Shown here: positions 11,175 to 23,722 of the stretch, in pieces | Numbering within the stretch: the first letter of the stretch is position 1 | How the letters are laid out: each line of letters opens with the position of its first letter | Assembly: GCA_905182125.1 (NCBI GenBank) | Contig: CAJJAV010000028.1 | Location: 1 to 41,487, forward strand | Direction: 5' to 3' | From: an uncultured Candidatus Poseidoniales archaeon | GTDB taxonomy: Archaea > Thermoplasmatota > Poseidoniia > Poseidoniales > Poseidoniaceae | Length of the DNA stretch: 41,487 nucleotides | Made by a program: the position numbers and the translations under genes | The notes under the pieces: generated by a model | What the model was told of the DNA's origin: nothing | Seen by the model: the letters and a program-made list of their open reading frames with translations, nothing else | The model's database searches: none

Positions 11175-11189
11175 AAAGGAATTAAAGTG
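11175..11189 (+). promoter_or_regulatory. Shine-Dalgarno site deciding a GTG start
   Basis: AAAGGA (11175-11180) lies 6 nt before GTG (11187), ideal ribosome-site spacing. In-frame ATG codons at 11214 and 11220 lack any such motif. This favours GTG as the start of the giant surface protein, but the shorter starts keep the signal peptide intact and cannot be excluded. Confidence 0.5.
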
Positions 11190-14100
11190 CAACGGGCAGT
11201 GGCGAGACCAGTGATGTTGATGTTCTCCAAAAACAACCACAAAAACAGCCGCGCCCTCAGCATGTTCCTCGTTATGCTGATGGTTTTGTCGACCACCGCC
11301 GCTCTCGCTACAACAGCTAGTGCTTCAATTGCCAGATCCTACACCACAAACCGTGATCCGTTGGACGTTGCTATCGGGGATTTCAATTGTGACGGATTCA
11401 ACGATATGGCAGTTGCCACCGAAGGAACCCACACCATCAGCGTCCTCTGGAACGATGGAACGGGTGACTTCAGCGAACGTCAAGACATTTGGGTTTCCCA
11501 GAACTTGAGTCGCAACGCCGATTGGGACGAGTTCTCAAACGTCCAGTTCATCGAAGTCGGTGAATTCACGGGCGATGGGGCAGACGACATCGTGATTTTC
11601 CAACGAAACAATCCATTCAAGACCGACGATAACGGCGCACCAGCTGGAGAGCCTGGTAACGTCACCATCATCGAAAACGGTGGCTGCAACGATGACACAT
11701 GGAGCATCGGGCAACGTTTCACTCACTTCTGGGCATGGGATCTTGCCGTTGGCGATTCTAATCAAGACGGAGAAGATGACATCTACGTCCTCGACCTTCT
11801 CAATGACGTATCCAACCAGCGCGTCGTCACCTACCGTGGCCCGATCACTTCGAACACACAAGGTATGGTCACTTCGCTTGGCCCTTCCAACCAAAACTCT
11901 TACAGAAGCCTCGAAGTTGGCGACTGGGGCGAAACCGAAACAAGCGTAACTGGAACCTGCACAGATGATGACATCTGGGTTCTTCGTTCCGAAGGTGTCG
12001 ATTATGCTACGGGTCAGACCACCAACCCAGGAAACGATGACAACGTCTCGATCATCGAATACTCCTGCTTGACCAACACCTATCCAGCCACCTACAATTA
12101 CAACCCAGCAACACCTCAAACCGCGACCAGCGTCATCAACATGGCTGTGCCCTTCACCAACGACTTTGACATTGCTGACATGGACAACAACGGTGAAATT
12201 GACGCATTGGTTGTCAACGATGGCAACGTCGAAAATGTGAGTTATGTGACCTCTTCTGCAGTAGGGACATGGTCTTCACCGAGCCTCGCTTACTTTGGAC
12301 CTTACATCTCTTATTCAGTTACAGTGACCGATCTGAACAACGACGGTGAACCTGATTTCGTCAACCCAACCGTCGCTTATCAACTGAACAGCAGCGATTC
12401 AGCGGGTGGCTCAAGTTCAAACTTCTATCTTAACTTCCCAACAACGGTGCAAGTGACCCTGTCTGATGGCAGTGGCGCCCACCTCACCCCGCTTTCATAC
12501 GAGGCTGGCCGCCGGCCAAGCATGGTCGAGGTCGGGCAACTTGCTGGACCTTCGAATTCCGCCCTCGACATCGTCGTTGGCCACACCAGTTACAGCTTTG
12601 GTAGCTGGGTTGACAACTTTGGATGGGAAGGTCAGTACGACACCATCACTGTTGTTGAAATGGACAGCAAAGATCTTGCTGTAACCTCTTTAGAAATCAG
12701 TCCAACAGACAAATTCTTTGGTATCGTCGGTGAAGGTACACGTGACATCAACGTCACCGTCACCAACACAGGAATGGATATCTTGAACGGTCAATCAGCA
12801 ACCCTCGACCTCGAATTGAAGATCGTCGATGAAGCAAGTTCGACCAACAACACCGTCTATCGGATGGATTGGGACTCAGCAGAAGATAAAACTGGCTGCG
12901 GTACCGGATGTTCATGGTCCTTTGATGAATACATCGACCAAGATACAAAGTGGCATGAAGAGACCAACAGCTCTCAAGGCGCAACCGATGCAAACAACGA
13001 TCCAAACGTCTCTGCCAACTACCTCAACCCAACCGACTTCATGTGGGCAGGACACTACAAGACCAACTCCACTGGCGACCTATGGTCTGGATACGACAAG
13101 AACTGGGACGATGCTATGGTCCTCGAAGACGTCGATTTGACCGGCTCCGACCGGGCGTTCATGAGCGTTGAACTCTTCCAGCACTTGGGCCATGGCGTCC
13201 TTGGCAGCCTCGATGCCACCGGAAATTACCTTGCAGGTGATGTCTGGGACGACGTTGCTATGATCGAAATAGGCAGTGCCGAATCTGGTTGGGATATTCT
13301 TTCATGCCCGCAAGAAGCCTACCTCTCTGGTGCTTGTGCATCAGGCGACTCCATTTGGGGTGGCTTTGACCTTGACCGGCAATACAAGCAATCGATCGGT
13401 GGTGTTGCAGAAGGTGTGTACTACTACGGTATCTATTCCTCTGGGACCTACTACGGGTGGAACAACTTCACTGAAGAAGGACTTGGTTCCTTCGACCTCA
13501 GCCCTTGGGCTGGTGAGACAGTTGACCTTCGATTCCGCTTCAGAACAGGTTTCACTGGTTCGATTTCAGACGACAACGAATCCCGTTGGTCTGGACGTGA
13601 CGGATACGCTGTGGACAACTTGAGCATCTGGAAGCAAAACACTGCATTCCTTGCCAACCCACAGGTCCAACAATCAACCATCAACCTCAACAACCTCGGT
13701 CCTGGACAAGAATACACCACCTCCATCACCGCAGATTTGCTGAATGATACCACCTACCGTATCTCTGCCAGCCTCTCTGGAAATTCGTGGGACGAACAGT
13801 CACAAAACGATGAACTGGTTGGTTACATCACTCCATTCAACCTCTATGACCCGATGGTCGAAGGCATTGAATACTTCAATCCCGGTGGTTTGTATGCAGA
13901 AGGTCTCTTCGACATTGAAGTCGCTACAAACAACTACGGAAACACCGAAGTGGATTTCGATATCCAAGCCACTGTCTTTTCAGCAACCCCATCCGATGTG
14001 TACTGCGGTACACCAAACGCTTTGTGCGCAGAAGACTTTGAAGGCGGTGCCAATGGTTACCGCTACGAGGAAAGTGCAAACCCAAAGGGTGTCATCTACA

Positions 14101-17100
14101 ATGAAAACACCTGTCAAGACAAGATCTTCAACAACAACGCTTACTGGTTCGGTCACCCCTGTGACACTGGAGCAAACGGCTATGGCGATGCATGGGCAAA
14201 CGAAACCCTGACCATCCCCAACATCGACTTGACTTCGATGAGCGGCGATTTCGTTTCCTTGAACTTTGAGTACTATGCAGACACCTTCTATGGTATCGAC
14301 TCGGATGGAACCTCCATCGTCGATGTCAATGATTACGCTGCCATGACCCTTGATATCCTACGTGACGGTGCCACCTACTCTGGTGTCCTTGTCGGGCAAT
14401 GGAACGACTACAACGAAGACGGAACCTGCCAAGTTGATGAAAACGGTGACAACATCGTCAACGCTTCAGAACCAATCGACAATGCAGAAATCGCTTACAT
14501 TGGCGATGACTCAAGCACCGATGGAACAACTGGAAACTACAATGTGTTCTTCAACACCAACGACCTTATCGCAACAACTTCAATCGATCTGACTCACCTG
14601 TACGTGCTCAACACTTCTGACGCCAGTTCAATTAACTGGGCCTATGAATGCATGTCCCTTTCAGGCTCAGTGGTTGACATCAACTTCGAATTCCAATCTG
14701 ATGATGATGGACGAAACGGTGTCAATGATGGATTCAAAGGTGTTGCTTTCAACAACATATCGCTCCAAGAGTTCACCTTCGTTGAAGACAATGCGTACAC
14801 CATCTCTCGCACCAACGTCGATGCAGACCAATCCTCCCTTGAGACCGTGGCAAGCCACGAGTTCTTCGCAGGTGTGTACATGATTGAAGTGGCGACCATC
14901 TTCGATAACACGACCGTCGGCAAGGCCTGGTACGGCAATGAAGAGATCTCCACCTCAAACAACATCGAGCGGGTTATTTTCAATGTCGAGTCCGTTGACA
15001 TCACCCTCGGTAAGCCAAACACCCTTTCGTGCTTGAACGATCAAATCCTCGAATGCACAATGCCTATCGACAGTTCATTCACACACGACTGGGCCTTCCA
15101 AGCCACGAACGGTGTTCTCGCTGGTGATTACTTGTTCAACATGAACATCTATGATGAGACCACACAAAGTGTTGCCCACACCACCACTGCAGGTCCTTCA
15201 CAATCCTTGGATTCGCAGCAGAAGGTCGATGTGACCTTCACGCCATGGAACGGCTGGCAGGACGGCCACACCTACAACATCAGCTTCGATGCTGAACTCT
15301 CAAACGGTAACCCATCAGGAAACGTTCGCTACTTCCATGCAACCTTTGCAGACCATGTTGACGTTGCTATCCTTTCGGATACTTCGATCCGTACCAACGC
15401 CATCAAGGAAGACCTCAGCCTCTTGAACATGAGTTACACCCAGTACACCATCAACGACTGGGACACATACCTCGACGCAGGATGGCTCACACACTATGAC
15501 AAGGTTGTCTTGCCATGGCAAGATGATATTCCAGCTAAGGACATCGAAAACGGTGGCCGTGGTTACTATCAGAAGTTGGGTTCAACCGCTCACCGAACCA
15601 CGCTTGAGGGCTTCATGTCCTCTGGTGGTACCGTTCAGGCTCACCTTGGTCCACAAGGCAGCCAAATTTACGGTGTGGATCAGAACCTCAACGGACGCTT
15701 GCCATTCGGCCTTGACGTCCAGAGCCGGAACACCCCAGAATCCCGCATCGACTTTGCCGGAACTGATTTCGCTGACCCGTACCATCCATTGATGAACAAT
15801 GTTGACATCAACGCTTTCCAAGCATTTGATGCAGACTCAACTGTGGCAGAAGCCGTCTTGAACACCAAGTCAGTCAGTGCCAATAACGTTCCAGTCACCT
15901 GCAACGGTTACATGGAAGACGGTGGTTACTTCCAGCGCTTGATCCGTGATGGAACAGACAACCAAGACACCATCCTCGGTGTTTGCAGTTACTACTCCGG
16001 TGGCCTCATCGTTTCCACCATGGACGTTTCATCCCACTCCGAGCGAGCTGACAGCACAACGCTGCCACTTCTTGGAAACATGCTCAGTTACCAAGTCACT
16101 CCATACCCAGAAGGCTTCGGTACATTGAGCAACGGATTGGACATGAAGATCAACGACCAAGTTCCTGGCATCAACCCAAGCACAGGCGGATACGTGTTGC
16201 GCTACATGAAGAGCGATGCAGACTTGACCTTCTCTTACAGCACCACAACCACTGAGATCCTCTCCACGGATTGGATTGTGTCCGGACCTACATCGTGGGA
16301 CGGCTCAACCATGGCAACAGGATTGACCGGTCACACCACCGATGCTATGCCAATCATGAACTTCTGTAAGGCTGACTTTTCCTCGGCAACAGGATGTGCT
16401 CAAGGCGAACAGTGGACCATCACCTTGATGCTCCACGACGCTGCAGGTCACTCCCGAGTGATCGAAGTCACCGTGGAAACCAACGATGTCTACGCTGATG
16501 AATACCGACCAACTGCAGAAGCAATGATCGATGTTCGTGAAGAGTACAGCGACCTTGTCGAATACGTCGGAACAAAGACCGTTTCCAACACCGAATGGGC
16601 CGTTAACCGAGTGATCCTCGACGAAGACGGTGAAGTCATCATCCACTTTGACGCAAGCAACTCAACTGACCTTGATGCCCTTGAAGGAAGTGGTATTGAG
16701 ACCTATGAATGGAAGGTCTTGTTTGACGCACCTTACGGTGATGATTCGTTCAGCCTTGATGGCCACACCTTTGAGACAACATCTGCCAGTGACGGTGCAT
16801 GGTCTTACCCCTTCCGCAACCAGACTGTTGACCCAAGTGGAACAACAGAGAACCAAATTCGAATTGAACTGATCGTCTACGACAAAGCAGGCAAGTTCTC
16901 AGAAAAGTACCGTATGTACTTCGTCGTCGTCCCTGATGGATTCGGCGATGAAGAACCAGTGGTCCAACTGGATGCTTCAATCAACGCTTCACGGATCGAT
17001 AGCGATACCATCACCATTTCTGGTACCGTTCTCTCAGGTGCTGAAAACGGCGATGTCTACGTCGAAGCAGCATTTTCGGAATCTGCCTTTGATGTAAGTG

Positions 17101-17867
17101 CGGTTGAAAAGTACAACCTCGGACTCATAGGCGCATGGGACAAGAGCAACAAGACAGGCGATGCTCAAACCTTCGACCTCACTCTCTCGCTCGAAGATCT
17201 CTACACCAACAAATCACAAAGCCAACGTATCTTCTTCAAGATTTACGAAGGCGATGACGAACGATGGATCACGATCAAGTGGATCGAAATCCAACTCCCA
17301 GCATGTCAAGGGTTTGAAGCACCCGCTGAAGCCATTGCTGCTGGTGGAGAATTCATCATGGAGGCAGATGGAGAATGCCAATGGAGCGGCGCCTGGACCC
17401 GATCGAATGGAGAATGGGTTGAACCTGCTCAAACCTCTGATACAGATGGTGCAAAGAGCAGCTTAGACTCAACGACCATTGGATTGGCCGTTGGGGCTTT
17501 GGTGATCATCATCCTCCTAACACTTGTCTTCCTCCGAAAGGGCAGCGCAGGTGGCGATGACACAATCAAGGACTTCGCAGCCAGTTCTGCTGGTTACGGT
17601 AACGCTCAACTCGATGCCACTGAACAATATGTTCAGCAACTCATCGCTCAAGGTTACCCAGAAGATACAGCTCGAACCTATGCCCAGCAGTATGCCGCCC
17701 AAGCAGCAGGAGCAGCAGCTCCCGCCGCAGCAGCAGCGGCCCCTGTCGTGGACGATGCGGTGTACCAACAGTACTACCAGCAGTTTGTAGGGCAAGGCTA
17801 CGATGAAGCGACAGCAGCGACGTATGCGCAACAATACGCCGTTCAGTACGCACAGTCGCAGCAATAA
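11187..17867 (+). CDS. Giant surface protein: FG-GAP-like repeats, amidotransferase-like domain, membrane anchor, cytosolic QGY tail
   Basis: The protein has 2226 residues. A signal peptide ends near residue 46 (ATTASA). Residues about 57-470 hold at least six FG-GAP/VCBS-like calcium loops such as GDFNCDGFND, GDSNQDGEDD, ADMDNNGEID and TDLNNDGEPD, suggesting a beta-propeller. Several CARDB/MAM-like beta-sandwich segments follow (about 515-1300). Residues about 1390-1640 resemble a class I glutamine-amidotransferase-like (ThuA/DUF4350-type) fold: VDVAILSD, YDKVVLPW, then FMSSGGTVQAHLG. A PKD-like segment lies near 1805-1915. One membrane helix (about 2097-2118) is followed by KG and a cytosolic tail with two related modules, 2148-2169 and 2196-2217, joined by an Ala/Pro linker. 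An adhesin or polymer-binding role is plausible but unproven. Confidence 0.9.
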   Translation: MQRAVARPVMLMFSKNNHKNSRALSMFLVMLMVLSTTAALATTASASIARSYTTNRDPLDVAIGDFNCDGFNDMAVATEGTHTISVLWNDGTGDFSERQDIWVSQNLSRNADWDEFSNVQFIEVGEFTGDGADDIVIFQRNNPFKTDDNGAPAGEPGNVTIIENGGCNDDTWSIGQRFTHFWAWDLAVGDSNQDGEDDIYVLDLLNDVSNQRVVTYRGPITSNTQGMVTSLGPSNQNSYRSLEVGDWGETETSVTGTCTDDDIWVLRSEGVDYATGQTTNPGNDDNVSIIEYSCLTNTYPATYNYNPATPQTATSVINMAVPFTNDFDIADMDNNGEIDALVVNDGNVENVSYVTSSAVGTWSSPSLAYFGPYISYSVTVTDLNNDGEPDFVNPTVAYQLNSSDSAGGSSSNFYLNFPTTVQVTLSDGSGAHLTPLSYEAGRRPSMVEVGQLAGPSNSALDIVVGHTSYSFGSWVDNFGWEGQYDTITVVEMDSKDLAVTSLEISPTDKFFGIVGEGTRDINVTVTNTGMDILNGQSATLDLELKIVDEASSTNNTVYRMDWDSAEDKTGCGTGCSWSFDEYIDQDTKWHEETNSSQGATDANNDPNVSANYLNPTDFMWAGHYKTNSTGDLWSGYDKNWDDAMVLEDVDLTGSDRAFMSVELFQHLGHGVLGSLDATGNYLAGDVWDDVAMIEIGSAESGWDILSCPQEAYLSGACASGDSIWGGFDLDRQYKQSIGGVAEGVYYYGIYSSGTYYGWNNFTEEGLGSFDLSPWAGETVDLRFRFRTGFTGSISDDNESRWSGRDGYAVDNLSIWKQNTAFLANPQVQQSTINLNNLGPGQEYTTSITADLLNDTTYRISASLSGNSWDEQSQNDELVGYITPFNLYDPMVEGIEYFNPGGLYAEGLFDIEVATNNYGNTEVDFDIQATVFSATPSDVYCGTPNALCAEDFEGGANGYRYEESANPKGVIYNENTCQDKIFNNNAYWFGHPCDTGANGYGDAWANETLTIPNIDLTSMSGDFVSLNFEYYADTFYGIDSDGTSIVDVNDYAAMTLDILRDGATYSGVLVGQWNDYNEDGTCQVDENGDNIVNASEPIDNAEIAYIGDDSSTDGTTGNYNVFFNTNDLIATTSIDLTHLYVLNTSDASSINWAYECMSLSGSVVDINFEFQSDDDGRNGVNDGFKGVAFNNISLQEFTFVEDNAYTISRTNVDADQSSLETVASHEFFAGVYMIEVATIFDNTTVGKAWYGNEEISTSNNIERVIFNVESVDITLGKPNTLSCLNDQILECTMPIDSSFTHDWAFQATNGVLAGDYLFNMNIYDETTQSVAHTTTAGPSQSLDSQQKVDVTFTPWNGWQDGHTYNISFDAELSNGNPSGNVRYFHATFADHVDVAILSDTSIRTNAIKEDLSLLNMSYTQYTINDWDTYLDAGWLTHYDKVVLPWQDDIPAKDIENGGRGYYQKLGSTAHRTTLEGFMSSGGTVQAHLGPQGSQIYGVDQNLNGRLPFGLDVQSRNTPESRIDFAGTDFADPYHPLMNNVDINAFQAFDADSTVAEAVLNTKSVSANNVPVTCNGYMEDGGYFQRLIRDGTDNQDTILGVCSYYSGGLIVSTMDVSSHSERADSTTLPLLGNMLSYQVTPYPEGFGTLSNGLDMKINDQVPGINPSTGGYVLRYMKSDADLTFSYSTTTTEILSTDWIVSGPTSWDGSTMATGLTGHTTDAMPIMNFCKADFSSATGCAQGEQWTITLMLHDAAGHSRVIEVTVETNDVYADEYRPTAEAMIDVREEYSDLVEYVGTKTVSNTEWAVNRVILDEDGEVIIHFDASNSTDLDALEGSGIETYEWKVLFDAPYGDDSFSLDGHTFETTSASDGAWSYPFRNQTVDPSGTTENQIRIELIVYDKAGKFSEKYRMYFVVVPDGFGDEEPVVQLDASINASRIDSDTITISGTVLSGAENGDVYVEAAFSESAFDVSAVEKYNLGLIGAWDKSNKTGDAQTFDLTLSLEDLYTNKSQSQRIFFKIYEGDDERWITIKWIEIQLPACQGFEAPAEAIAAGGEFIMEADGECQWSGAWTRSNGEWVEPAQTSDTDGAKSSLDSTTIGLAVGALVIIILLTLVFLRKGSAGGDDTIKDFAASSAGYGNAQLDATEQYVQQLIAQGYPEDTARTYAQQYAAQAAGAAAPAAAAAAPVVDDAVYQQYYQQFVGQGYDEATAATYAQQYAVQYAQSQQ

Positions 17868-18110: not shown

Positions 18111-19145
18111 TCACTCTTCTTCAAACGTATCGAATTGTGGCTCATCAGGGTCTTCGATGTGGCCCATTTCATCAATGTGTGAATCAAAATCAGGAAGGCT
18201 TTGCTTCCATCCACCAGGCAATTTGGTCTTATCATCAATGATCTTCAACATGCGTTCCTGCCAAGCTTTTGGTTTGCGCTGCATGATGTAAACATAGAGG
18301 ACCGAGGTTCGTATCTCTTCTGAGATGACCACATATCCTGAAGATGCCTCGAAATTCATGGCCCTCAAGAGGTTGAATGCTGGACGGTTGACCCGACGGA
18401 AAATCCGTCGACTAAAACGCATACCAAACAAAACTGTACCAAAAATAAGCAGCGTTGTCAAACAGAACGCTCCCCACCCTTGTTCGACAAAGCGGTTGGA
18501 AAGAAGGACCTCCAACAACAGAATTGGGACCGTTGTGGTCATGAATAAAAAGCTCTCAGAAACAGGTGGCTTCCTCATTTTTGTCTCAATAGCGCCCCAG
18601 CCATTGTGGTGCTTCTCCCAGGGTCTGAAGAATTCGGAAGTGTCTTGAACAGATGCAGCCATCACCATACCGTGCAATTGACTGATCTTGGCGTATTGTT
18701 GGCTACTGACATCCATGTTCTCCTCAGTAATGGCTTCCAAACGGTACTTTGCTTCGGTGTACAATCCCATATCGGCCAACAGTGTGGCTTGTTCGACAAG
18801 GGGGGTGACTTCCTCTGGCATGTGATGGCGGAGTTGCTGCCACCATTCCAAAGCGTCATCCAACAAACCCAGTTCATCGCTTAACAACCGGCCACCTAAG
18901 AACCACATAGCGGTCCGTTCAGGCTCGATTGCAATGATTTTCTTGACTGCTGAAAGGGACTTTGCTACTTGCTTGAGCGTGGGGTTTTCACCCTTGGGCG
19001 GCAATGCCGATTCTGCACATAGTTGCCAAGCATCAATGTGTGAAGGGTCTTCTTTGACAGCTAATCGTGCTGATGAATAGGCTCCTTCAAGATCACCTTC
19101 ATCGTATGCTTCAACTGCATCAAGGTAATGTTCTTCAGCGCCCAT
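18111..19145 (-). CDS. TPR protein with two membrane helices
   Basis: The protein has 344 residues. The first about 165 residues are helical TPR-type repeats: AEEHYLDAVEAYDEGDLEGAY is the first helix pair, followed by SHIDAWQLCAE and ERTAMWFLGGRL-type pairs. Two membrane segments follow near 205-225 and 230-250 (TTVPILLLEVLL and LTTLLIFGTVLF), then basic residues (SRRIFRRVNR) and a cytosolic C-terminal domain ending in an acidic tail. It may be a scaffold at the inner face of the membrane; no catalytic motif is visible. The ATG at 19145 has AGGTG upstream, better than the GTG at 19154. It starts 26 bp after the Gar1-fusion gene and is probably co-transcribed with it. Confidence 0.85.
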   Translation of the reverse strand: MGAEEHYLDAVEAYDEGDLEGAYSSARLAVKEDPSHIDAWQLCAESALPPKGENPTLKQVAKSLSAVKKIIAIEPERTAMWFLGGRLLSDELGLLDDALEWWQQLRHHMPEEVTPLVEQATLLADMGLYTEAKYRLEAITEENMDVSSQQYAKISQLHGMVMAASVQDTSEFFRPWEKHHNGWGAIETKMRKPPVSESFLFMTTTVPILLLEVLLSNRFVEQGWGAFCLTTLLIFGTVLFGMRFSRRIFRRVNRPAFNLLRAMNFEASSGYVVISEEIRTSVLYVYIMQRKPKAWQERMLKIIDDKTKLPGGWKQSLPDFDSHIDEMGHIEDPDEPQFDTFEEE

Positions 19146-19171
19146 TTGACACACCTATGGTTGATCAAGAA

Positions 19172-20770
19172 TCAGTCATCTCGACCCATAAGGTCGCGTG
19201 GCGGTCGGTTGTGAGCATGACCATCGGCTTTTTTACCGCTGGCTTTACGGAATTCTCGAGGTTCACGGCGAGGAGGGCGTGTATCGCCACCTCGTGAATC
19301 TCCTCCGCGTGAATCGCCACCTCGTCGGTCGCCGCCTCGTGAATCTCCTCCGCGTGAATCGCCACCTCGTCGGTCGCCGCCTCGTGAATCTCCTCCGCGT
19401 GAATCGCCACCTCGTCGGTCGCCGCCTCGTGAATCTCCTCCGCGTGAATCGCCACCTCGTCGGTCGCCACCTCGTGAATCTCCTCCGCGTGAATCGCCAC
19501 CTCGTCGGTCGCCACCTCGTGAATCGCCGCCTCGTGAATCGCCACCTCGTCGGTCGCCACCTCGTGAATCGCCACCTCGTCGGTCGCCACCTCCGAATCT
19601 GTCGCCGCCTCGTGAATCGCCACCTCGTCGGTCGTCGCGTCGTGGTGGACGGCTTTGTCCGCCACCTCGTGAATCTCCTCCACGTGAATCGCCACCTCGT
19701 CGGTCATCGCGTCGTGGTGGACGGCTTTGTCCGCCGCCTCCGCCACCGCTACGAGGATCACCGCATCGGTTGCATTCTTGTCGGAATGCGAAATTTGAGT
19801 TGTTGCATTTGGGGCACTCCCAATCATTATCGGTGTACACCTCGCCTCCACCACGGCCTCTTCGGTCGTCGTTGTTTCTTCGGTCGCCCCGATCCGGGGA
19901 GGATCTTCGCTCACCGCGATCATTTCCTCTCTGGCCTCCGCCAGCCTTTGGTGCTCCACACTTGTTGCACTCGGTTCGCCAAGCGAAGTTGTCATTGTGG
20001 CATTTCGGACAGTCCCAATCGCCATCTTTACGATTGTTGGAACGATCGTTTCGCTCAAAGCGTCCACCGCGGTCTTCACGGCCTTGGAATCCACGGTCGT
20101 TGGAGCGACCACGGTCGTTGGAGCGTCCGCCACCGCTGCCCTTTGCTTCACCGCATCGGTTGCATTCTTGTCGGAAAGCGAAGTTGTTGTTGTTGCACTT
20201 TGGACAATCCCAATCGCCACCGTTGCTGGAACGGTCGTTTCGATCGTTTCGTCCACCGCGGTCTTCACGGCCTTGGAACCCACGGTCATTGGAGCGACCA
20301 CGGTCGTTGGAGCGTCCGCCACCGCTGCCCTTTGCTTCACCGCATCGGTTGCATTCTTGTCGGAAAGCGAAGTTGTTGTTGTTGCACTTTGGACAATCCC
20401 AATCGCCACCGTTGCTGGAACGGTCGTTTCGATCGTTTCGCTCAAATCGGCCGCCTCGGTCGTTTCGGCCTTGGTCTCGACGGTCGTTGCCTCGAGCACC
20501 GTCTCGGCCTCCAGTGCTTCGCTCTTCGCGAGCCTTCTTTGGACGTATGTTGACTTCAACACCGACCAGGCTTGGAATGTCGAGTTTTCGATCGAGATGA
20601 GCGACGTGAGCAAGTGGTGCGTTGGTGTTCCCCAAGACTGCGTCAACTTTACCGATGTATACACCAGTATCGCCATACACAATGATTGATTCAAGGGCGG
20701 GTGATGATCCTGTAAAGGACACCAAAAGGCCACCTTCGTGGCTTAACGACTCAACTGTACCTGCAAACAT
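19172..20770 (-). CDS. Gar1-like H/ACA RNP core fused to four RanBP2 zinc fingers and an RGG/RGGD tail
   Basis: The protein has 532 residues. Residues 1-80 match the Gar1 fold: GTVESLSHEGGLLVSF, VYGDTGVYIGKVDAVLG, APLAHVAHL and GVEVNIRPKK align along the whole length of small archaeal Gar1 proteins, which bind Cbf5 in the H/ACA pseudouridylation complex. Four RanBP2-type fingers follow with Cys at 126/129/140/143, 189/192/203/206, 254/257/268/271 and 319/322/333/336. Each fits W-x-C-x2-C-x3-N-x6-C-x2-C, a fold known to bind single-stranded RNA. Arg/Asp/Gly-rich linkers separate them. Residues about 340-500 are a long RGGD repeat, and the end is basic. Usual archaeal Gar1 proteins have about 75-100 residues. 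RNA-binding is strongly implied; a Gar1 role in rRNA pseudouridylation is inferred from the fold. Confidence 0.88.
   Translation of the reverse strand: MFAGTVESLSHEGGLLVSFTGSSPALESIIVYGDTGVYIGKVDAVLGNTNAPLAHVAHLDRKLDIPSLVGVEVNIRPKKAREERSTGGRDGARGNDRRDQGRNDRGGRFERNDRNDRSSNGGDWDCPKCNNNNFAFRQECNRCGEAKGSGGGRSNDRGRSNDRGFQGREDRGGRNDRNDRSSNGGDWDCPKCNNNNFAFRQECNRCGEAKGSGGGRSNDRGRSNDRGFQGREDRGGRFERNDRSNNRKDGDWDCPKCHNDNFAWRTECNKCGAPKAGGGQRGNDRGERRSSPDRGDRRNNDDRRGRGGGEVYTDNDWECPKCNNSNFAFRQECNRCGDPRSGGGGGGQSRPPRRDDRRGGDSRGGDSRGGGQSRPPRRDDRRGGDSRGGDRFGGGDRRGGDSRGGDRRGGDSRGGDSRGGDRRGGDSRGGDSRGGDRRGGDSRGGDSRGGDRRGGDSRGGDSRGGDRRGGDSRGGDSRGGDRRGGDSRGGDSRGGDTRPPRREPREFRKASGKKADGHAHNRPPRDLMGRDD
19291..19620. 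repeat. 45-bp tandem repeat array coding the RGG/RGGD tail
   Basis: A 45-bp unit (15 codons, giving Asp-Arg-Arg-Gly-Gly-Asp-Ser-Arg-Gly-Gly-Asp-Ser-Arg-Gly-Gly) is repeated head to tail with starts at 19291, 19336, 19381, 19426 and 19471. The copies are almost identical at DNA level, including the Arg and Gly codons chosen. From about 19510 the array breaks down into 18- and 27-bp shortened units. The unit length keeps the reading frame, so copy number can change without a frameshift. The array also keeps other frames open, which creates several false long frames here. Confidence 0.9.
20062..20441. repeat. Tandem 189-bp duplication of one zinc finger plus linker
   Basis: 20062-20250 and 20251-20439 are near-identical head-to-tail copies, each coding 63 residues: one RanBP2 finger with its Arg/Asp/Gly linker. 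The differences I can see are two substitutions near the start of the second copy (AATCCACGGTCGTT against AACCCACGGTCATT). The other two fingers are clearly more diverged, so this is the most recent duplication in the gene. Confidence 0.85.
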
Positions 20771-20831: not shown

Positions 20832-22802
20832 TCATTCCTTTTTGGCTCTGTTTGCCACGATGACACCAAGCAAGGTGACGGTGAGCGTGGCGAGTGTTGA
20901 CAGAGCAGGCATGCTCTCTTCGGCGACCGGTAAACTGTCATCGACAATCGGGTCATTCGAGGAGGCATAAGGGTCTGGGACCTGCACTTGCATCGTTGTC
21001 ATGATGCCTGATTCATCGGTCGCAACCAATGTGATATCATAGATTGTAACGGGTGGGTTTTGCGACGAACATGAAACGATGTTTACGTCAATTTCCCAGA
21101 CGATCCCGGAACGAACGAAGTCGTTGGTGGAGTATCCACACAATGTCAGCGACATCTGGACGCTCTCGCCGTCTGCATCAAGCACCTTCCCTTGGAGGGT
21201 AAATTTGAGGTAACTTGCATCCCATGTGGCGTTTGTCCCATCGAGGTTAACTTCGAGTTCAATCACAGGTGGTGCACTGGCCTTTTTCAAGCCGAAGTCG
21301 AGCATGAACTCGTAGTCAAGCATGCCATTGGATTGTGCTTGACCCATCACCAGGACCATACCAGGGGCGAGACCTTCGAGTGGAAGCGAGATGGTAGATG
21401 CATCGGAGGCAACAGTCACGGTTCGCATTTGACCCATAGTGGCCATTTGGTGGGCGTGAGCGGACACAGATAACTCACTCACAACGCCGGTAGGTGTCAA
21501 GGTAAATTCGACAGCGTCCCCTGCTTCAGAAATGACCGCATCTGCTGTGAAGGGTTGAGCAAAGGTCCAGTTTCGTGTCTCAACAGAGGTGGCGCCAAAG
21601 GGATCGACAACTGTGCATTCAGATTCTGCCTGTGCGTTTGCTGCCACATCGGCAGGCCCGTCCAAGAAGAGTGTACCATCTTCATCGAGTCCAGTGATCC
21701 ACTGGCCAACATAGTCTGAGTCTGCAAAGGTGCAATCGAGGGCCCATCCACTGTCGTCGGTTGCCCACAATTCTGTAACCACACCGGCCACGAGGGATCG
21801 TGTTCCCATTGTGTAAGGGATCACTGTCCCATCAACAGGTGCTTCAGCAGTCCATTCTGGGACTTCATTGGTTTCTGGAGATTGAGTGGTGAAATCCAAG
21901 AAAAGATTTCGAATAATCGGGTATTCGCTCGAAGCGTAATTGACTTCTTGTGTGACTCGAAGGCGTCCATCAGGCAAATATTGCGTTTCTGGTAGCGGCA
22001 TTGCAGTGCTTTCCATGCCATCATCGCGGAGTGAAGAGTTGACCAACCTTAGGCCTTGTAATTGCGGGAATGTAAGCACCAGACCAGCTTGACTCATGTT
22101 GGTAACGTTCAATGCGAGGGTGAAATTGGAAGCACCGCTGTTTGGCAGTTGGTCGAATTGTACATTGTTGCTTTCGCCTTCTTTAGTGAACATGAGGATT
22201 TGCAGGTCATCTGTGATGGTGACTGGGACCTCTTTGCAATCTGAAGAAGCCAAGAGATTTTGACAATTTCGCTCTTCTGCATGGTTATCAGGCACGAGGT
22301 TTACCTCATCCAGAGATATGCCATCCTTGACGAATTCAAGATCATTCCAGTCCACGCCACCTCGGTGAGGCAAGCCTTCACGGATCCCAATGCGGGTGTC
22401 CATGTCAGCGATGCAGTCTGGACCAATGGCTCGAATAGCTTCACGTTCATCGGTGCTCATCCAAGAGTTGTTCCCACCAGGGGTTCCTTCAAACAATCCG
22501 TCAAGGTTTTCTCGAACGGTTGCCGAGTTGCTGCCATTCACGTAGGCTACAGCGCCCATCTGAGCTGTGGCCCAGTCTTCATTGAGGAGAATATCAAAAG
22601 CGGCAAAATTATAATCGAATAAATCTTCAAATTTGTAGCCACTGCAGTCCACTTCAAGCGATTCTTGTCGGGCGCTTGTTGGTGCTTCTGAAGGTTCAGA
22701 GATGGCGCTGTGCTCATTGACCATGCTTGATGCGGCCATCAATAAGAACAGGATGATGATGGTCACTGCGGTTGAAGTTTGGGCGAAACGAGGTCTTGCC
22801 AT
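20832..22802 (-). CDS. Secreted or surface protein anchored at both ends, unknown function
   Basis: The protein has 656 residues. The N-terminus is short and basic (MARPRFAQ) followed by a hydrophobic run (AVTIIILFLLMAA), a signal peptide or anchor. The C-terminus has a Ser/Pro spacer and a hydrophobic helix followed by Asn-Arg-Ala-Lys-Lys-Glu, the usual layout of an archaeal C-terminal surface anchor. The body is acidic and beta-rich with several N-glycosylation sequons (NGS, NNS, NFT, NMS, NAT) and scattered Cys pairs. No enzyme motif is seen. GAGGTAAGC directly before the ATG at 22802 fixes this start; a longer frame to 22976 runs into the permease gene. It lies just downstream of the ABC genes and may be their partner or cargo. 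Confidence 0.88.
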   Translation of the reverse strand: MARPRFAQTSTAVTIIILFLLMAASSMVNEHSAISEPSEAPTSARQESLEVDCSGYKFEDLFDYNFAAFDILLNEDWATAQMGAVAYVNGSNSATVRENLDGLFEGTPGGNNSWMSTDEREAIRAIGPDCIADMDTRIGIREGLPHRGGVDWNDLEFVKDGISLDEVNLVPDNHAEERNCQNLLASSDCKEVPVTITDDLQILMFTKEGESNNVQFDQLPNSGASNFTLALNVTNMSQAGLVLTFPQLQGLRLVNSSLRDDGMESTAMPLPETQYLPDGRLRVTQEVNYASSEYPIIRNLFLDFTTQSPETNEVPEWTAEAPVDGTVIPYTMGTRSLVAGVVTELWATDDSGWALDCTFADSDYVGQWITGLDEDGTLFLDGPADVAANAQAESECTVVDPFGATSVETRNWTFAQPFTADAVISEAGDAVEFTLTPTGVVSELSVSAHAHQMATMGQMRTVTVASDASTISLPLEGLAPGMVLVMGQAQSNGMLDYEFMLDFGLKKASAPPVIELEVNLDGTNATWDASYLKFTLQGKVLDADGESVQMSLTLCGYSTNDFVRSGIVWEIDVNIVSCSSQNPPVTIYDITLVATDESGIMTTMQVQVPDPYASSNDPIVDDSLPVAEESMPALSTLATLTVTLLGVIVANRAKKE

Positions 22803-22827
22803 GCTTACCTCGGTGCAGTCTTGTTTG

Positions 22828-22846
22828 AAAGAGACTTCGCCTCTTT
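22828..22846 (-). promoter_or_regulatory. Inverted repeat in the leader of the surface-protein gene
   Basis: AAAGAG (22828-22833) and CTCTTT (22841-22846) are perfect inverted arms around a 7-nt loop, between the permease stop (22892) and the surface-protein start (22802). It could be a weak transcription stop, an mRNA hairpin or an operator; there is no T-run to call it a terminator. Confidence 0.25.
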
Positions 22847-22891
22847 GTGGGGAGAATCTGTACTTTTGGAACACCTCGAAGGGGAGCATAG

Positions 22892-23722
22892 TCAAGGTTG
22901 CAAGGTTTCCATTCGACGGACAAACCACCATGTTGGTAAAACCGTCCATACAATGGCCATGCTCCATGTTTGCCATGCAGCAATGCCACGATCAATCTGA
23001 ACCAACCTTGTTTCCAACAGGTGATGATACACCCCATTTGGAGAAAGAAGATCCAATGCGCCTTCAAGTGCCAGCCATTGAACGTTGTTTTCTTCACCGA
23101 TGGTAACGCCCGATGCAAAGGCGACCATCGTTGTCACCAATGCCCAGAGGAAGGTGAACAAAAACCACATTCCGATACCAAAAGCGACCGCTGTTCCCTG
23201 GTCCTTTGTTCGAGATGAAGCCAATAAAGCAAACACCACATACCACAACAAAATCAACGATGTCGCCACAAGGTGCACGGTGATGTCAGCCATTGAAGCC
23301 CATTCACCAAGGCGCCATCGAATGATTGCTAGCGAGAGAAGGATGAGAACTGCAACTGGGATGAAAATAGCTTGCCACATACCAAGGACCAGAGCCAATG
23401 CTTGGTGCGTACGAGGCATTGGTTGTGCGAGTTTCAACTCAAACACGCCGCTCGCTCTGTCTCTGCTGACACCGTCAAAGGCCAGTAAAACGCCACACAT
23501 CGTAGCGCCAAAAACAACGCCGAGGCTGGCATAGAACAGCACTTCCATCGGTTCATCGGGTTGATGCCCACCTGGCAAAATGATGTTTGGATCTGAGAAT
23601 CCCCAAGCCATTCCAGGAAGAAAGAGAACCAAAATAGGCAACATAATCAACATACGAGTGGAACGTACACGGTCCCAAAAGACTCGGTTAGCAAGCGCCA
23701 GGAGTCGTTGAAGATCATTCAT
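22892..23722 (-). CDS. ABC-2 type transporter permease
   Basis: The protein has 276 residues with about six membrane helices and the ABC-2 layout. A helix near 25-43 (LIMLPILVLFLPGMAWGF) is followed by an outer loop, then a helix pair separated by the cytosolic motif SRDRASGVFELKLAQPMPR that contacts the ATPase, then helices near 105-130, 145-165, 180-205 and a last one near 255. Its start overlaps the ATPase stop by 4 bp (ATGA), so the pair works as one exporter. The substrate cannot be read from sequence; ABC-2 exporters move lipids, glycans, drugs or peptides, and a similar layout occurs in copper and gliding-type systems. Confidence 0.9.
   Translation of the reverse strand: MNDLQRLLALANRVFWDRVRSTRMLIMLPILVLFLPGMAWGFSDPNIILPGGHQPDEPMEVLFYASLGVVFGATMCGVLLAFDGVSRDRASGVFELKLAQPMPRTHQALALVLGMWQAIFIPVAVLILLSLAIIRWRLGEWASMADITVHLVATSLILLWYVVFALLASSRTKDQGTAVAFGIGMWFLFTFLWALVTTMVAFASGVTIGEENNVQWLALEGALDLLSPNGVYHHLLETRLVQIDRGIAAWQTWSMAIVWTVLPTWWFVRRMETLQP

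Follow-up and report, generated by a model that had tools for sequence, protein, structure and literature searches.

A Gar1 protein with RanBP2-type zinc fingers and an RG-bearing arm in archaea of the order Poseidoniales

Background

In archaeal guide-RNA particles, as passages of three papers describe them, Gar1 contacts Cbf5 only and influences catalysis and the release of product through the thumb loop (PMC4551948, PMC7991803, PMC8096250). According to the relevant lines of a review, archaeal Gar1 is without the Gly/Arg arms of eukaryotes (PMC7991803), and a section of another paper regards RGG domains on Gar1 as specific to eukaryotes (PMC8096250). The gene analysed here runs contrary to this published picture. 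It lies on contig CAJJAV010000028.1 of assembly GCA_905182125.1, from an uncultured Candidatus Poseidoniales (Marine Group II) archaeon; the stretch considered, called the window below, covers positions 1 to 41,487 of that contig in full. The gene, gar1, encodes a Gar1 domain followed by a long arm with four RanBP2-type zinc fingers and an RGG tail. We put the probability at roughly 0.7 that its product is the working Gar1 of the Poseidoniales H/ACA pseudouridylation particle, and that the arm adds direct RNA binding. The gene and its parts are as follows.

19172..20770, minus strand: whole gene, with Gar1 domain, four RanBP2-type zinc fingers and RGG tail; ATG start, 532 amino acids (aa)
20531..20770, minus strand: Gar1 beta-barrel domain, residues 1-80
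20342..20401, minus strand: zinc finger 1, residues 124-143 (Pfam, consensus)
20153..20212, minus strand: zinc finger 2, residues 187-206, within a tandem repeat of 189 bases
19958..20017, minus strand: zinc finger 3, residues 252-271 (Pfam, consensus, structure model)
19763..19822, minus strand: zinc finger 4, residues 317-336 (Pfam, consensus)
19280..19699, minus strand: RGGD-rich repeat block, residues 358-497, 24 RGGD[SRT] units
19190..19222, minus strand: GHAHNRPPRDL motif near the C-terminus, residues 517-527; relatives within the family again show GHAHN-type ends

Gar1 identity of the N-terminal domain

Taken with their relatives, residues 1-80 can be firmly assigned to the Gar1 domain by profile comparison and structure prediction. 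Both were needed, since single-sequence searches failed or stayed below cut-off: the Pfam Gar1 model matches these residues weakly (E 0.0064, 16.7 bits versus a cut-off of 29.3), none of the 59 genomes of the host and its relatives passes that cut-off, and a search with the domain as a single sequence returns no PDB match up to E 10. Profile-profile alignment against canonical Gar1 with hhalign gives E 6.8e-12 over 76 columns, and the top four matches of the family profile among 177,635 PDB sequences are Pyrococcus Gar1, at E about 0.007. The AlphaFold model of the domain is confident and predicts the Gar1 beta-barrel, which is conserved across the family; its 14 best Foldseek matches all come from H/ACA particles. 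Because the profile-profile match, the AlphaFold and Foldseek results and the status of the gene, which is the sole one of Gar1 type detected in a genome that also has Cbf5 and Nop10, agree, Gar1 identity is regarded as settled, and the Gar1-like core proposed for residues 1-80 in a preliminary description of this DNA is borne out in both profile and predicted structure. Naf1, an assembly factor, also has a Gar1 domain. In structure comparison Pyrococcus Gar1 scores above Naf1, with eukaryotic Gar1 and Naf1 level within 1 Z, and that the protein is an archaeal counterpart of Naf1 is hardly credible.

Copy number and spread in Poseidoniales

The host assembly is 1.85 Mb in size and 82 % complete, so a further copy may lie unseen in the missing part. 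In this genome no second Gar1 was detected, either by the Pfam model at E <= 10 or by the family profile at E <= 0.1, so that the separate canonical Gar1 whose existence the preliminary description had raised was not found there. Cbf5 is present in the host and above cut-off in 56 of the 59 genomes, while Nop10 was found in 55, the host among them. The gene itself is found by the family profile in 53 of the 59. Five of these give a second match, which in G029 is the remaining half of a gene split in two and in G027, G031, G038, and G049 is weak (E 0.01 to 0.09).

In a sample of the whole phylum (243 genomes), 61 of the 64 Poseidoniales have the gene at E <= 0.001, the 64 being counted from the kinship order of the genome list and the misses being G112, G023, and G050. 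Each of these 61 has a single match except G164, which has two, and the single-contig genome G073 has one match to the family profile. Outside Poseidoniales, 20 genomes match the profile more weakly (E 6e-8 to 9e-4). Gar1 with fingers or an RG-bearing arm is an order-wide Poseidoniales architecture in which the number of fingers varies. The archaeal host assumed in the preliminary description is upheld. Of the 43 homologous loci, all but L064 are labelled Poseidoniales, Poseidoniaceae, Euryarchaeota archaeon or uncultured euryarchaeote. L064 is labelled Rhodobiaceae bacterium and is probably a mis-binned contig. A search of phages gave no match.

Some individual genomes and loci deserve a comment. 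The two Gar1-finger genes of G164, on its contigs C37 and C38, reflect a duplication or mixed strains. For G050, no Gar1, no Nop10 and no Cbf5 above cut-off was found, and for G054 Gar1 alone of the three; either an incomplete assembly or a real loss would account for this. The Gar1-finger gene is often truncated in assemblies: the contigs of L002, L004, L005, L012, L015, L039, L044, L045, and L048 stop inside the finger or RGG region, and some of these loci represent one and the same place.

From the fold, the single copy and the presence of Cbf5 and Nop10, we infer that the N-terminal barrel would dock on Cbf5 and control its thumb loop as in other archaea. The protein might instead have left the H/ACA particle to serve more generally as an RNA-binding protein or RNA chaperone built on the Gar1 fold, with Cbf5 working without Gar1. 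This would suit a Gar1 core so divergent that it falls below the Pfam cut-off, conserved neighbours that are not ribonucleoprotein (RNP) genes, and genome G054, which has the gene and in which neither Cbf5 above cut-off nor Nop10 was found. G054 may, however, be incomplete, the barrel is conserved family-wide, and no other Gar1-like gene was found in the genomes that keep Cbf5 and Nop10, all of which makes such a departure improbable.

Zinc fingers and their RNA-contact residues

The four fingers fit W-x-C-x2-C-x3-N-x6-C-x2-C exactly, the consensus of RNA-type RanBP2 fingers in the form taken here from a passage of PMC7154859. Pfam Zn_ribbon_RanBP matches all four stretches (E 6.2e-33), which upholds the four RNA-type fingers first read from the sequence. 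Fingers 1 and 2 are identical over all 36 residues compared, and both lie inside the 189-base tandem repeat (19981-20440). The best PDB sequence matches of the fingers are ZRANB2 and FUS. A model of finger 3 (29 sequences, predicted local distance difference test 82) is matched best in Foldseek by the FUS finger in complex with UGGUG, followed by ZRANB2; the VIA comparison of the same model puts Ran-binding fingers slightly higher, with all Z low.

According to parts of two papers, the GG dinucleotide is read in ZRANB2 by N76, N86, R81, R82, and a stacking tryptophan (PMC10349855), and the ZRANB2 fingers that were tested target GGU (PMC6384913). The positions that correspond to the contact residues N76, W79, R81, R82, and N86 of ZRANB2 finger 2 were surveyed in 92 distinct fingers from 80 distinct proteins, selected by W/F and four Cys alone. 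In ZRANB2 numbering, D68, N78, and R82 are invariant, N76 is found in 86 fingers and N86 in 85. Position 79 is always F or Y, and position 81 is F in 65 fingers, W in 11, R in 8, K in 6, and S in 2. R82 is encoded by five different Arg codons, in a set prefiltered for Arg. The residue pattern points to selection for RNA contact, among relatives that are not independent of each other. Fingers that bind proteins and not RNA, as those of Nup153/RanBP2 do with Ran and NZF fingers with ubiquitin, are for us a very unlikely alternative, set between the slightly higher Ran-binding fingers of the VIA comparison and the conserved contact residues.

RanBP2 fingers above the Pfam cut-off occur in 46 of the 243 phylum genomes, 45 of them Poseidoniales by table count. 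Most of the Poseidoniales fingers sit in the Gar1 gene, and the few on other contigs are probably split-gene pieces. The 46th genome, from another Thermoplasmatota family, has a RanBP2-type finger at the C-terminal end of what looks like a membrane protein, at locus L194 (G062:C2).

The RGG tail and variation of the arm

Past residue 80 the window protein holds 29 RGG triplets; in 2000 shuffles that preserved composition, the average was 5.5 and the highest count 13. RGG clustering is thereby confirmed: the RGGD-rich tail claimed at the outset is real, with a repeat block 140 residues long (358-497), not 160 as first given. Unfiltered comparison of codons one 5-residue unit apart in the repeat array yields 51 synonymous versus 19 non-synonymous differences, random single-base changes being 31 % synonymous; the younger 45-base copies give only 8 to 9 and look neutral. 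Together these numbers suggest, but do not prove, that the repeat is under selection at the protein level. A codon table of the RGGD units, which were picked by their residues, shows synonymous variety and cannot show residue retention. All 22 occurrences of the RGG-x2-RGG codon pattern in the host genome lie in gar1; the pattern is limited to CGN codons for arginine and to a single spacing.

The arm differs considerably among relatives. Among the 80 distinct proteins, 15 have no finger by the W/F and four-Cys pattern, 17 have one, 19 have two, 19 have three, and 10 have four; the 15 without fingers comprise 4 canonical Gar1s, 2 proteins at a contig edge, L014 (with a run of N), a second L023 row, and 7 others. 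L036, L038, L085, and L089 are truly without fingers. Variant fingers with a C-x4-C second pair are seen in L098, and shortened, degenerate ones in L099 and L101. Genera g4 and g8 have no fingers and retain basic tails with RG dipeptides. In a tree of the two conserved neighbour proteins (26 taxa, 1005 columns), the finger-less genera fall among finger-bearing ones with support of 0.92 to 0.98; this placement favours loss of the fingers in those genera, with the root uncertain. Only some of the 66 complete rows have more RG dipeptides than their shuffles (L017, L050, L167, and L169, for example, do not exceed the shuffled mean). Among the 66 are 4 canonical Gar1s that do not belong to the order (L127, L132, L136, L141), the misplaced second L023 row and, as judged by eye, sequences cut by N runs or frameshifts (L014, L023, L063, L083, L096). 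An RGG tail is pronounced in the window protein and uneven in relatives, and the feature common to most is a basic tail.

The arm could chiefly drive phase separation, its fingers and RGG repeats gathering H/ACA particles and pre-rRNA in a nucleolus-like condensate. The 29 RGG triplets, four fingers and 24 RGGD units are in keeping with this idea, as are the basic tail retained where fingers were lost and the link of eukaryotic glycine- and arginine-rich (GAR) arms to nucleolar phase separation described in a passage of PMC9957100. However, residues 346-532 contain 2 aromatic, 35 acidic and 52 basic residues, whereas the GAR domain of fibrillarin, as presented in that source, is interrupted mostly by Phe, and charged intrinsically disordered regions are stated, in part of another paper, to be insufficient for sub-nucleolar localisation (PMC10662738). 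Moreover, the RG content of relatives is often no higher than that of shuffles, and no class-I protein arginine methyltransferase (PRMT) domain scores above cut-off in the 59 genomes, which give two weak matches (E 0.03 and 0.06) to a model of unproven sensitivity that none of 14 control genomes passes either. The scarcity of aromatics, the abundance of aspartates and the lack of a class-I PRMT match make a FUS-like condensate the weaker reading, and phase separation as the chief role of the arm seems unlikely. We are similarly doubtful of the broader picture in which a FUS-like RNA-grabbing arm evolved on Gar1 and concentrates the modification machinery on nascent rRNA, as a nucleolus-like organiser without a nucleus.

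Proposed function

The reading that we prefer is that of a working Gar1 with an added RNA-binding arm. Unlike known archaeal Gar1, which makes no contact with the guide RNA, Poseidoniales Gar1 would bring an RNA-binding arm of its own. Its fingers, of the FUS/ZRANB2 class and set on flexible linkers, would grip single-stranded RNA containing GG or GGU, and the RGG tail would supply non-specific RNA contacts. The arm may in this way keep the particle attached to pre-rRNA or to other substrates, leading to a higher local substrate concentration and to altered loading and release. In vitro, turnover is altered when yeast Gar1 lacks its RGG domains, an effect that the authors, in the passage concerned, read as substrate-RNA contact (PMC8096250). 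By analogy, the Poseidoniales arm may have a tethering role like that of the yeast RGG arms, to which the fingers would add a preference for GG/GGU.

Several observations weigh against this proposal. Yeast Gar1 cut to its central domain suffices in vivo, as stated in the review (PMC7991803), and the fingers are missing or degenerate in some genera and therefore dispensable to Gar1 there. The core signature has partly drifted: GPV..P, invariant in 19 canonical Gar1s, is GNT..P in the window protein, with GPI or GPV retained in relatives L036, L038, L085, and L089. R81 of ZRANB2 is replaced by F or W in 76 of the 92 fingers, though FUS also has W there. Besides, finger-less basic Gar1 tails occur in another family, and no known RNP gene was found among nine neighbours scanned with Pfam.

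Reading frame and genomic neighbourhood

A repeat artefact or wrong frame was considered and rejected. The 532-aa frame is accepted because relatives keep it and because third codon positions are the most variable in finger DNA: differences fall at the three codon positions in proportions of 26/18/56 %, in a comparison of finger DNAs prefiltered for N78, an aromatic at 79, and R82, from which residue invariance is not to be read. Open reading frames of 522 and 451 aa in other frames over the gene are taken as repeat shadows, relatives keeping the 532-aa frame.

The gene stands between two conserved neighbours.

20832..22976, minus strand: conserved upstream neighbour, same strand as gar1; nothing in Pfam at E <= 0.01; present in all 31 loci examined
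18111..19154, minus strand: conserved downstream neighbour, same strand, 17 bases past gar1; weak tetratricopeptide repeat match below cut-off; found in 29 of 31 loci

The contigs of the two remaining loci stop inside gar1, and in L085 the downstream neighbour is about 3 kb away. The same-strand block of upstream gene, gar1 and downstream gene is shared by both families of the order. Further upstream lies an ABC-2 transporter pair (Pfam). Elsewhere in the window, a 2226-residue protein with FG-GAP repeats is encoded at 11187-17867 on the plus strand, and an Rfam scan of the window finds only a transfer RNA.

Comparison with known systems

Canonical Gar1 proteins of Thermoplasmatota have no such arm. 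The 28 read first measure 71-104 aa, and ten more, eight of them chosen for long open frames, span 70-146 residues between the start of the core and the stop. Three of these ten (L198, L199, and L204, from G078, G129, and G125), all from one genus of another Thermoplasmatota family, have basic tails of about 60-70 residues with no fingers and no RGG cluster; the remaining seven are short or short-tailed. That archaeal Gar1 is normally a bare domain, as the preliminary description had it, thus stands for the 28 and has to be qualified for this genus, in a statement that covers 38 read sequences out of the many more canonical Gar1s of the phylum sample. Since one genus has a basic tail, the tail as such is not unique to Poseidoniales. 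Archaeal Gar1 from Pyrococcus (PDB 2ey4/2hvy/3mqk) matches the core in both sequence and fold, and to this core the Poseidoniales protein adds its arm.

Eukaryotic GAR1, as portrayed in parts of PMC8096250 and PMC7991803, similarly joins a Gar1 core to a Gly/Arg-rich low-complexity arm. It differs in having arms on both sides, whereas the Poseidoniales arm is C-terminal only, Asp-rich and interleaved with zinc fingers. We know of no eukaryotic GAR1 with RanBP2 fingers; no search aimed at one was made. FUS and ZRANB2 share with the protein their RanBP2-type fingers, with most RNA-contact positions the same and the FUS finger as the best Foldseek match. In the FET proteins (FUS/EWS/TAF15), an RNA recognition motif (RRM) occurs together with the finger and RGG. 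By contrast, the Poseidoniales protein has a Gar1 domain, its Pfam scan lists no RRM (E <= 10, with filters that drop many matches above 0.1), and its tail is nearly without aromatics. The analogy with FUS, EWS, and TAF15 that had been drawn at first therefore holds for the finger, on the Foldseek evidence, and breaks down for the RGGD-rich tail, for the RRM and for a PRMT above cut-off. The protein is not filed as a FET member, but it may work like part of one.

No description of an archaeal Gar1 with fingers or RGG was found in open-licence PMC literature, among the matches listed. RNA-type RanBP2 fingers are shown here in archaea, and an order of marine archaea carries FUS-class fingers and an RG-bearing arm on what is apparently its only Gar1. 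Sister genera with and without fingers offer a natural comparison for what such arms do in pseudouridylation. The Gar1 core, RanBP2 fingers and RGG tails are each already known; what appears to be new is an archaeal Gar1 that combines fingers with an RG-bearing arm.
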